This document shows positions 57,858 through 61,414 of a stretch of 64,000 nt of DNA, in pieces. The translations under genes were made by a program, and so were the position numbers. The notes beneath the pieces were generated by a model. That model worked only from the letters and a program-made list of their open reading frames with translations, did not search any database and was not told the DNA's origin. The stretch covers positions 978,501 through 1,042,500 of the forward strand of contig NZ_CP045798.1 in NCBI RefSeq assembly GCF_000746025.2. The letters run 5' to 3'. The stretch is from Thermanaerosceptrum fracticalcis (GTDB lineage Bacteria > Bacillota > Peptococcia > DRI-13). Numbering within the stretch: position 1 is the stretch's first letter; each line of letters starts with the position of its first letter.

Positions 57858-58529
57858 CTACTCACCTTTCTCATACAGCTCGTTCCACAAACTTGACGGG
57901 ACAATATCCTTTAAATAGACCTGTTGGGGAGTTATTTTACCGGTCCAGGCATTTTCTGACCAGTCTTCTTCGTTTATTTCCGGGTCCCAGGCTTCGTGAA
58001 TCACTAACCCATCTTTTACAGATGACCTGAACCACAACCGTACTAACTCGTCCTCTCCCGTATTGACAATGGTATCCCTTAATTTTCTCGCTCTAGGGGC
58101 AAGAGGCGTACAGATATAGGTCCTGCAGACCAGAGGACGTTCATTGTAGTTTAAACAGCGGCGGGTCTCCCTGTTTAAAAAGATACACTTCTCGTCACTC
58201 TGCCTGGCCAGAGTAATATCCACCACAGGGCCCGAAACACAAACATTAGTAAACCTCTTGAAAAATTCCCCCAAAGGCAGCCCGGGGGCTAGGCCCTTTT
58301 GTAGTACCAATACATCTAAACTGGTAAGGGGGACTCGTTCCTGGCAGCAGACATCACAGCCCTCGCATTTTCCAGTCTCCGCCCGTACTCTCTGGTACGT
58401 GCCCCTCTCAATATATTCTTCTAAAGCCGAAAGATAATCTGCCAGGGTGGCCTCTTCCGAATGTATAACCACATCTATTCCCGTTTTTCCTTCTATGTTA
58501 ATGGGTACAAATTCTACACAGGGGTTCAT
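57858..58529 (-). CDS. YkgJ-type cysteine cluster protein
   Basis: The 223-residue protein carries the YkgJ pattern of metal-binding cysteines: CEGCDVCC, then C in KCIFLNRETRRCLNYNERPLVCRTYICTP. Such proteins bind iron-sulphur or zinc; the biochemical role is unclear. It overlaps the MFS gene by four bases and is followed closely by trmL. The C-terminal region is acidic without recognised domains. Confidence 0.85.
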   Translation of the reverse strand: MNPCVEFVPINIEGKTGIDVVIHSEEATLADYLSALEEYIERGTYQRVRAETGKCEGCDVCCQERVPLTSLDVLVLQKGLAPGLPLGEFFKRFTNVCVSGPVVDITLARQSDEKCIFLNRETRRCLNYNERPLVCRTYICTPLAPRARKLRDTIVNTGEDELVRLWFRSSVKDGLVIHEAWDPEINEEDWSENAWTGKITPQQVYLKDIVPSSLWNELYEKGE

Positions 58530-59698
58530 AATAATACCCCTTCTTCTTTCTTTACTGCTGAGGTTTCCGATAGCTTTAGGAAACCAGTTAAAATGAGGGC
58601 TGGTATGAGAAGAAGAGCTGTCATTAAAAGAGCAGGTATGTACCCCATTTTATCAGCTAACATTCCGGTGAGAGAAGTGCCTATCCCGCCCAGGCCGAAG
58701 GCAAAGCCCATGGTCATACCTGAGGCTAACCCTGCCCGTTCCGGTAATAGTTCTTGGCCAATAACCACTGTGACGGGCCCTGTACCATGGATGATGAGGC
58801 CCAATATCACCAGAACCCAGTTACGTAAAGGGGGGCTGACGTAAAAATAAAGTGGCAGGACCACAAGCGTCAATAAGAAATAGACCGCAAGTGTTTTCTT
58901 TTTGCCTAACAGAGGGCAGATATAACCACAAAGAAAACCTCCCAATGTCCCGGCCAGTAAATAGTAAGTAAGAACCAACCCGGCCTGCTTTTCATCTGTT
59001 CCCTGAGCCACCAGCCAAAGGGGAATGAATGTGGTTGTAGCCGTTACGAGCCAGGAACGTAAACCCACAATGCCGCTCAGCATCCACAACGAACGGTAAT
59101 TCCTGCCATCATTGGCACAGTAAACCGGCTCTTCATATATTTTTTCGGATTCGGATTTAGGTATAAGACGGAGCAACATAATCCAGATAAGTCCCGGAAT
59201 GACCAGATATACAAGGCCGTTTAAACCCCATTTGGCCACAATAAGTGCAGTGATGGCCGGTGCAAAAGCGAAGCCGAAATTGCCACCCGCACTGTACACA
59301 GACATTTTGATGGCTTTGTGTGAATTTGCCCCCTCTACGGCTTTAGTAGCGCCTAAGGGGTGATATAAGGCTGAGCCTAATCCTCCCAAAGCCACCAAAA
59401 AGAGAAACAGAGGATAATTTTGCACATAAGCCAGCAGGCTCATGGGTATGGCAATAGCCGCTAAGGCCAGACCTAATGACCAGTTCCACTTTGCTTTGTC
59501 AATGAGATAGCCAAATACGGGCTGCAGGAAATTGGCTGTTATAGTTTGTACCGTTACAGCCAGGGCTAGTTGGGTGTTATTTAAGCCCCATAATATGCCT
59601 ATAAAAGGCAACAAAGGAGGTAACATATTTACATAGAAATCTACCCAAAAATGTCCTCCCGAAACTAAAAGGGTCCCGCCCCATTTTGTCTGCAGCAA
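58526..59698 (-). CDS. MFS transporter, fosmidomycin-resistance (Fsr)-like
   Basis: The product of about 390 residues has 12 membrane helices. The N-terminal pattern GGHFWVDFYVNMLPPLLPF and TITANFLQPVFGYLIDK resemble Fsr-type major facilitator exporters. Substrate is unknown. The TTG at 59698, after AAGGGGATGAGAAG, is chosen. An ATG at 59878 would add a charged 60-residue part that overlaps the preceding gene's terminator and is unlikely. It overlaps the YkgJ-like gene. Confidence 0.88.
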   Translation of the reverse strand: MLQTKWGGTLLVSGGHFWVDFYVNMLPPLLPFIGILWGLNNTQLALAVTVQTITANFLQPVFGYLIDKAKWNWSLGLALAAIAIPMSLLAYVQNYPLFLFLVALGGLGSALYHPLGATKAVEGANSHKAIKMSVYSAGGNFGFAFAPAITALIVAKWGLNGLVYLVIPGLIWIMLLRLIPKSESEKIYEEPVYCANDGRNYRSLWMLSGIVGLRSWLVTATTTFIPLWLVAQGTDEKQAGLVLTYYLLAGTLGGFLCGYICPLLGKKKTLAVYFLLTLVVLPLYFYVSPPLRNWVLVILGLIIHGTGPVTVVIGQELLPERAGLASGMTMGFAFGLGGIGTSLTGMLADKMGYIPALLMTALLLIPALILTGFLKLSETSAVKKEEGVLL

Positions 59699-59785
59699 TG
59701 TCTTCTCATCCCCTTGTCCAATAATCTTGCACAGATAATTATATACGCAGCACAGGAAGTTGAGCAACAAATATTGGTTACTAAC

Positions 59786-59823
59786 GACAAAAATCAAAGT
59801 GGTTTTTTCAACCACCTTGATTC
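59786..59823 (-). terminator. Terminator after the solute-binding lipoprotein
   Basis: On the minus strand AATCAAGGTGGTT pairs with AACCACTTTGATT (one mismatch), followed by TTTTG. The stop codon of the poly-G-corrected frame (59808-59810) lies inside this hairpin. Confidence 0.8.
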
Positions 59824-59991
59824 TGGCCCGATCCTCCCTGCTGCTGACCTTCTCTTTCTTTTTTACCTTCCTCTTCACCCTTTATTTCTATACTTTCCAC
59901 TTCCCCGGTGATATTCATCTGGAATTCCTGCCCATCTTTGGTTTTTATCTTGACTACAGTCTTTTTACCTTTTTGGCCTTGTCCTTGTTGA

Positions 59992-61101
59992 TTACTCCCA
60001 CCCTCTTGCTGCTGGCTTTGTTGATTCCCCCCCCCCTTGGTTACCGCCAGGTTTTTTTTCCGGGCTCTCTTTTTTCTCCCGTTGTTTCTTGATAGTTTCC
60101 AGCCTTTCTTTCATCAGCGAAAGATTTTCTTTGGTTATGGCGCGAATGGGTGTAAACCTTGCGGGTACCGTATGGCTTCCGTTATTTATAAGCTGTTCGT
60201 ATTCCCAGGGCTCATCTTTCTCCAAATCCTTGGCCGCTTGAAGCGAAACTTGAGCAACCAGTTCAGGCATGATATCGATCTCTGCTGCATGGTATCCCTT
60301 TTCCATGGCTTCCACAATTTTTTGGTCGGTGCCAATACCAAAAGTCTTAACTTTCCCGGCCATACCTTTTTGCTCCAGAGCCTGCAAGGCACCTAATGAC
60401 AATTCGGGTGAGGAAGCTAAAATGGCTTGAGGAATTTTATTGTTTTCCAGATACTTTTTCACAACATTAAAGGCCAATGAAGGATCCCAGTTTACTATTT
60501 CCTCCGTCCAGATGGCTCCTATGTTTTTATTTTCACGCAAAACATTCAAATTACCTTTTACAATACGTTCAGCAATAGGGTCCCCCCGTGAACCCCTCAG
60601 CAACAAAACCGTATAAGGCTCGTTTCCTTTAATAGTTTGTAGCATTTGCTGGGCCTGCATTTCCCCGGCCCTCTCAAAATCAGGGGTGATAAAGGCATCA
60701 GCCGTGCTGTCTGGCGGTAGAGAACCAAGAGCGATAATCTTCGCATCTTTTTTCTGGATATCCCCAAACTTCTTGGTTAACATTTCGGGGTTGACCGGCT
60801 GTACAATAATAACTTTAACCTTTTCTTTCAGTGCTTCTTCCAAATCCTTGTCCTGTTTCAGGGGATCATTCTGGGCATCGAGCCAGGAAATCTCCATTTT
60901 TTCTTCTCCAGCTTTTTTCGTCATGATTTCTTTCAAAACTATATAGTTTTCGTTGGTGGAATTGGGTATGCTTACGGCAATTTTGGTCTTGTTTTGCTCT
61001 TCTTGTTGTTTCTTAGGTCTTAATTGAGGTACCCTACTGCAACCCGCTGCCAGCAAAAATACCAGCATAATACAGATAGCCTGTCGCCAATTTTTTTTCA
61101 T
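59992..61101 (-). CDS. Sugar-binding-type solute-binding lipoprotein, C-terminus split by a G10 run
   Basis: The 369-residue protein has a lipoprotein signal (LLAAGC, lipid Cys near residue 21) and a periplasmic-binding fold of the ribose/xylose type. Strings include IAVSIPNSTNENYIVLKEI, VIIVQPVNPEML and LRGSRGDPIAERIVKG. No ABC transporter is adjacent. At 60027-60036 ten G lie in the coding strand. As read, the frame ends at 59992. With nine G it continues 72 codons (Gln/Gly/Lys rich, with TVVKIKTKDGQEFQ) to 59808, ending in the terminator. Phase variation, programmed slippage or a sequence error may explain this. Confidence 0.88.
   Translation of the reverse strand: MKKNWRQAICIMLVFLLAAGCSRVPQLRPKKQQEEQNKTKIAVSIPNSTNENYIVLKEIMTKKAGEEKMEISWLDAQNDPLKQDKDLEEALKEKVKVIIVQPVNPEMLTKKFGDIQKKDAKIIALGSLPPDSTADAFITPDFERAGEMQAQQMLQTIKGNEPYTVLLLRGSRGDPIAERIVKGNLNVLRENKNIGAIWTEEIVNWDPSLAFNVVKKYLENNKIPQAILASSPELSLGALQALEQKGMAGKVKTFGIGTDQKIVEAMEKGYHAAEIDIMPELVAQVSLQAAKDLEKDEPWEYEQLINNGSHTVPARFTPIRAITKENLSLMKERLETIKKQREKKESPEKKPGGNQGGGESTKPAARGWE
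60027..60036 (-). repeat. Poly-G (C10 on plus strand) homopolymer in the lipoprotein gene
   Basis: Ten consecutive C on the plus strand follow TTGATT. In the gene they lie inside codons CAA GGG GGG GGG GAA. Loss of one G joins the main frame to a 72-codon downstream frame that shares the same Gln/Gly-rich linker. Confidence 0.9.
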
Positions 61102-61252: not shown

Positions 61253-61414
61253 TTGGCTGGTTACGCATGTCCAGTATGCGGTAAAAAGTCAAGACTTCCG
61301 GGATTCTGCTGTGGACAAACCATGGTGCAGCAGGGAACATATTATTGTGATAGATGCAGAGCCCAATCCAACTGTGCTGCAGATTGTTGTGGTTCACCCA
61401 TGAAGCTTATCTAA
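61253..61414 (+). CDS. 53-residue cysteine-rich (zinc-ribbon-like) protein
   Basis: AAGGAGGTGA lies six bases before TTG at 61253, an ideal ribosome site. The peptide carries nine cysteines: CPVCG (6, 9), FCCGQ (19, 20), CDRC (32, 35), C41 and CC (45, 46). Two C-x2-C pairs suggest zinc or iron binding. It starts MAGYACPVCG and ends MKLI. I do not recognise the family. It is alone on the plus strand between minus-strand genes and shares a terminator with the FlhB-like gene. Confidence 0.75.
   Translation: MAGYACPVCGKKSRLPGFCCGQTMVQQGTYYCDRCRAQSNCAADCCGSPMKLI

Follow-up and report, generated by a model that had tools for sequence, protein, structure and literature searches.

In Helicobacter canadensis, tracts of G10 or longer give rise to C-terminal phase variation (PMC2823697), and replication slippage at G10-G11 has been documented in a Gram-positive bacterium, Bifidobacterium breve, where one of the tracts is a coding G10/G9 (PMC9187656). 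In Clostridioides difficile, phase variation of a c-di-GMP phosphodiesterase occurs by means of DNA inversion (PMC9286219). Singleton frameshifts that are confirmed by homology represent indel mutations or sequencing errors, and most of those in databases are expected to be errors (PMC3711429). The locus described here lies in a window of 64,000 nucleotides of the Thermanaerosceptrum fracticalcis genome (contig NZ_CP045798.1, positions 978,501 to 1,042,500), the whole stretch that was analysed, in which a lipoprotein gene carries a run of ten G within its coding sequence. The favoured reading, with a probability of roughly 0.5, is that a G tract arose by chance in a linker under weak constraint and underwent a one-base slip in the DNA, and that it is not an evolved switch.

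Architecture and Genomic Context of the Lipoprotein Gene

The features of the gene are listed below in window coordinates.

59992..61101, minus strand: lipoprotein gene in the ten-G reading, encoding a probable orphan solute-binding lipoprotein of 369 aa with lipobox LLAAGC and Peripla_BP_4 at residues 41-295
60027..60036, minus strand: G10 homopolymer in the Gln/Gly-rich linker (C on the plus strand), one base (+1) beyond the register that the homologues use
60052..60059, minus strand: A8 run in the same linker, just upstream of the G10, with the frame intact
59811..60026, minus strand: ancestral C-terminus of 72 codons (linker, beta-hairpin module and Gln/Gly tail), out of frame at ten G
59862..59966, minus strand: conserved module KKTVVKIKTKDGQEFQMNITGEVESIEIKGEEEGK, modelled as two strands in the sister protein, with G390 and G399 (sister numbering) invariant in 19 sequences
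59790..59822 (approximate), minus strand: intrinsic terminator hairpin, which includes the TGA at 59808-59810 that ends the full-length form

The N-terminal part of the product is a binding protein with a match to PF13407 (Peripla_BP_4) of 144.3 bits against a curated cut-off of 35.1. The lipoprotein signal was judged from the N-terminal lipobox and from the conservation of C21, which is invariant in 19 sequences; surface exposure of the product is predicted. Among solved structures, the closest (2ioy, 3m9w) belong to RbsB/XylF-type sugar-binding proteins and cover the binding domain alone. The likeness to these proteins extends along the whole length of the binding domain, however the lipoprotein carries an additional linker and beta-hairpin module that fall outside every matched PDB chain. 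Sequence comparison and structure modelling together show an architecture in which a predicted lipid anchor is followed by the binding domain, a linker of disordered Gln/Gly sequence, a small beta-hairpin module in the C-terminal part and a Gln/Gly tail.

The surrounding gene order is kept in relatives (DegV, FliK-like, FlhB-like, binding protein, MFS, CxxCxxCC, TrmL-like and AdoHcyase-like), with neighbours named by Pfam in the window and by eye in the relatives. A test for a CUT2 ABC importer identified no recognisable sugar permease or ATPase gene adjoining the binding protein, in the window or in related loci, and because none adjoins it the gene probably encodes an orphan binding lipoprotein. 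The overlap of the downstream MFS ORF (58526-59878, minus strand) with the lipoprotein extension is due solely to a mechanically assigned GTG start at 59878; a better fit to the homologous neighbours suggests a start near the TTG at 59698. In the sister genome, the MFS gene is missing from between its flanking genes. A 53-aa cysteine-rich, zinc-ribbon-like ORF with a TTG start (61253-61414, plus strand) lies on the other strand from the binding-protein gene and is conserved in genomes G001, G010 and G004.

Reading Registers at the G Tract

A recount of the letters returned the ten consecutive G of the original prediction, and the ORF of 369 aa ends at 59992 as had been described. The register one base shorter reads through a further 72 codons (NQQSQQQEGG...SGQNQGG) up to the TGA at 59808-59810, in agreement with the extension predicted for nine G, while the third register remains open for 23 codons past the tract. 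The placement of the extended-frame stop within a terminator hairpin likewise held: the predicted fold has an energy of -22.9 kcal/mol (z -6.35) and is followed by a T run. In the ten-G state, the protein stops 14 codons past the slip and the conserved module is lost. The 72 open codons are by themselves weakly improbable (P about 0.036), and the extension is established through homology with related proteins, not through the length of the open frame.

Homologues and the Ancestral Register

The closest relative, at 93% identity, is found in the sister genome G001 (MAG Peptococcaceae bacterium M1_7_4_bin.22). Its gene contains GGGGGATGGA at the position of the G10, with no long run, and encodes a protein of 430 aa with the same tail; nine G corresponds exactly to the length of the sister sequence between matched flanks. 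The original prediction called for a search for homologues with the 72-residue extension, and the tail is kept in 33 homologous genes (10 among 60 relatives, with a further 23 from 398 genomes sampled from the phylum), none of which ends at the ten-G stop. As judged from the sister protein and these genes, the nine-G register is the ancestral, full-length form, as had been proposed.

The C-terminal element follows the consensus T-K-L-x-I-K-T-x-D-G-K-x-x-E-x-x-I-x-G-E-I-x-S-x-E behind a low-complexity Gln/Gly/Ser linker, and both module glycines are invariant in an alignment of 19 sequences. The compact beta-like stretch noticed earlier in the extension corresponds to a two-stranded hairpin in the structure model of the sister protein (residues 380-386 and 392-398, pLDDT about 80), preceded by a linker modelled as disordered (pLDDT below 50). 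A Pfam search of the sister protein gave no match over this motif, and no second copy of the module was found elsewhere in the genome. The analysis thus defines a conserved, probably orphan binding lipoprotein with a C-terminal hairpin module that has no Pfam match. The high-scoring relative L093 was assigned to a different subfamily, having neither linker nor module, and in L092 (G129) and L094 (G091) the beta-hairpin motif occurs twice in tandem.

These comparisons also lend some support to the main rival explanation, a possible but doubtful one, in which the true gene has nine G and encodes the full-length protein, the tenth being a miscount made in sequencing or assembly. No homologue of the subfamily is truncated, and nine G restores the exact length of the sister. 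Homology-confirmed singleton frameshifts are often errors (PMC3711429), and G tracts are difficult to count; in B. breve, the reference record itself disagreed with the population (PMC9187656).

Neither the sister nor any homologue examined has a long G tract at this site; runs in the homologues reach at most G7, C7 and, once, A9, each within an intact frame. Programmed recoding sites are usually conserved, and the lack of a conserved tract in any homologue argues against recoding, by which slippage of RNA polymerase or the ribosome on the G10 would yield both products from one DNA sequence; nor was any stimulatory element noticed in passing. Both C-terminal frames are open and homopolymers can, as a general statement, give transcriptional slippage in bacteria (PMC3711429), however this explanation is considered highly improbable.

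Selection on the Extension and Linker

When read in the nine-G register, the extension differs from the sister at 16 nucleotides, 11 of which are third codon positions (dN 0.041, dS 0.264). Within the module core, all six differences are at third positions (dN 0.012, dS 0.324). These dN and dS values are the sum of both branches, this species and the sister. The excess at third positions and the low dN therefore suggest that the frame abandoned at ten G was under purifying selection until recently, with the values summing both branches. Because the lost frame is still under codon-wise constraint, the ten-G lesion would be recent or unfixed. Residues 301-355 of the linker are fast-evolving relative to the sister (dS 0.47).

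G Tracts in the Genome and the Origin of the Ten-G State

A second-order Markov model predicts about 0.14 ten-G sites per 64 kb and about 8 per genome. Four loci with at least ten G are present in the genome (0 to 9 in relatives), so that no genome-wide excess of long homopolymers, as a contingency-locus repertoire, was found against the roughly 8 ten-mers expected; because the genome has four such loci, the length of the G10 is unexceptional. The only coding runs in this class are the G10 described here and a G27 tract in an HD-GYP gene. Two intergenic G10 tracts (G000:C1:1302339-1302348 and 2348782-2348791) lie near nitroreductase-like and ABC sugar permease genes.

Shorter tracts bear on the accuracy of the assembly, and speak against a miscounted tenth G. 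Both coding G9 tracts are in intact frames, every exact G8 tract genome-wide but one lies within or next to an intact frame, and all runs of 7-8 bases in the coding sequences of the window are in frame. The gene broken at the remaining G8 tract codes for a uracil-DNA glycosylase of the UDG family (G000:C1:2575926-2576367, L056); it carries an in-frame TAG as well as a +1 frameshift at a C8/G8 run and has an intact sister copy of 213 aa; with both lesions it looks like a real pseudogene. Systematic homopolymer error was rejected, as runs of 7-9 bases are in frame almost everywhere, and gross miscounting of homopolymers is unlikely because only one G8/G9 tract breaks a gene and that gene has a second lesion. 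MutS and MutL are intact, and broken mismatch repair was accordingly rejected as a cause of slippage.

The favoured reading, a one-base slip in a chance tract, would proceed as follows. Substitutions in the linker of this lineage, most likely through drift, created an uninterrupted G run, as GGGGGATGGA in the sister shows. This run is prone to slippage, and the sequenced clone or consensus would carry a +1 slip; the frame is directly visible, while the slip is placed in the DNA by deduction. The slip would end the protein 14 codons on and remove the conserved module, in a lesion that may be recent or unfixed. Revertants to full length are probably present in the same population, as an accident of tract length and not through an evolved switch. 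The case would illustrate that a chance homopolymer in a linker under low constraint can mimic a phase-variable gene, and that homologues tell the two apart.

A Conserved Poly-G Tract in an HD-GYP Gene

Of particular relevance as a contrast outside the window is a G27 tract (G000:C1:1704680-1704706, L040:2001-2027), longer than any other G run in this genome, at the 3′ end of a gene encoding a PocR-GAF-GAF-HD-GYP protein by Pfam. It was first taken as an assembly artefact, however the tracts of homologues at the same place speak against this. Orthologues with about 70-78% identity, from many families, carry G8-G20 at this position in 16 other genomes (L115, L124, L125, L127-L135, L166-L169, L172, L173 and L175); those without a tract are L116, L170 and L174. 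A hydrophobic tail (TLIALLGEILFLLRR), with the sequence T-L-I-A-L-L-G-E-I-L-F-L-L-R-R or a variant, is encoded in one frame at 19 distinct loci, whichever frame is open. At present L127, L166, L169 and L172 read into the tail, while most of the others have it out of frame. Pairwise differences between the loci at first, second and third codon positions number 563:179:1045, with two loci counted twice, a pattern as expected of coding sequence. Differences in tract length are between assemblies, except in the single-contig genome G335, which has two copies of the gene, with G14 and G15, that are identical over 685 bp bar two single-base gaps.

On sequence comparison, the tract is thus a good candidate for phase variation, across Firmicutes, at the C-terminus of a putative c-di-GMP phosphodiesterase. 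A literature search did not find poly-G phase variation of such an enzyme, only the DNA inversion in C. difficile (PMC9286219). Should this be confirmed, the retention of a poly-G tract at a single site in many Firmicutes families would mean that C-terminal phase variation reaches a signalling enzyme, and would extend the phenomenon past the host-associated bacteria that have been its main study ground so far. This comparison case is of greater importance than the lipoprotein finding itself.

The presence of this convincing candidate elsewhere in the same genome lends some weight to an evolved contingency locus at the lipoprotein gene, where reversible slippage of the tract would toggle between forms with and without the C-terminal module. 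The length and 3′ position of the G10 match the C-terminal phase variation candidates of H. canadensis (PMC2823697), the product is predicted to be surface-exposed, and the extension is still under constraint. However, neither the sister nor any homologue examined has the G tract, just four loci of the genome reach ten G and two of these are intergenic, and MutS and MutL are intact, such that an evolved locus is considered unlikely. It is also quite unlikely that the G10 is a young but genuine stochastic switch by which the beta-hairpin module is removed from or displayed on a surface lipoprotein, in a Firmicute whose HD-GYP gene would already be under a poly-G switch at its C-terminus. The phase-variable lipoprotein of the original prediction is therefore not upheld, as the tract is missing from relatives and no set of such tracts exists in the genome. 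Compared with its orthologues, the HD-GYP locus resembles a conserved phase-variable tract, whereas the lipoprotein G10 does not.

Comparison with Known Systems

Two features of C-terminal phase variation in H. canadensis, G10 or more near the 3′ end and alternative C-termini (PMC2823697), are present in the lipoprotein gene. As in that species, the tract lies near the end of the coding sequence and the change of frame affects the C-terminus alone. However, H. canadensis has eight such genes in one genome and shows, in reads, the variation of tract length within a population that defines such a system, whereas the present case consists of one lineage-specific tract in assembled sequence, and here the frame change loses a module that homologues conserve. 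Retention of the tract in relatives, a supporting criterion of our own that is outside the published definition, is not seen, since the sister and the homologues have no long G tract at this site.

The slippage switch in the sortase-dependent pili of B. breve (PMC9187656) is similar in that it involves a Gram-positive bacterium and a coding G10 in which G9 restores the long frame. In that genus, G tracts recur in the pilus clusters and variation was measured, whereas here the sister species is without the tract. The singleton frameshifts of the GeneTack survey (PMC3711429) share with the lipoprotein gene a single frameshifted member in a family otherwise intact and, with no feature found that sets the lipoprotein case apart, this class is the default for the G10 finding.
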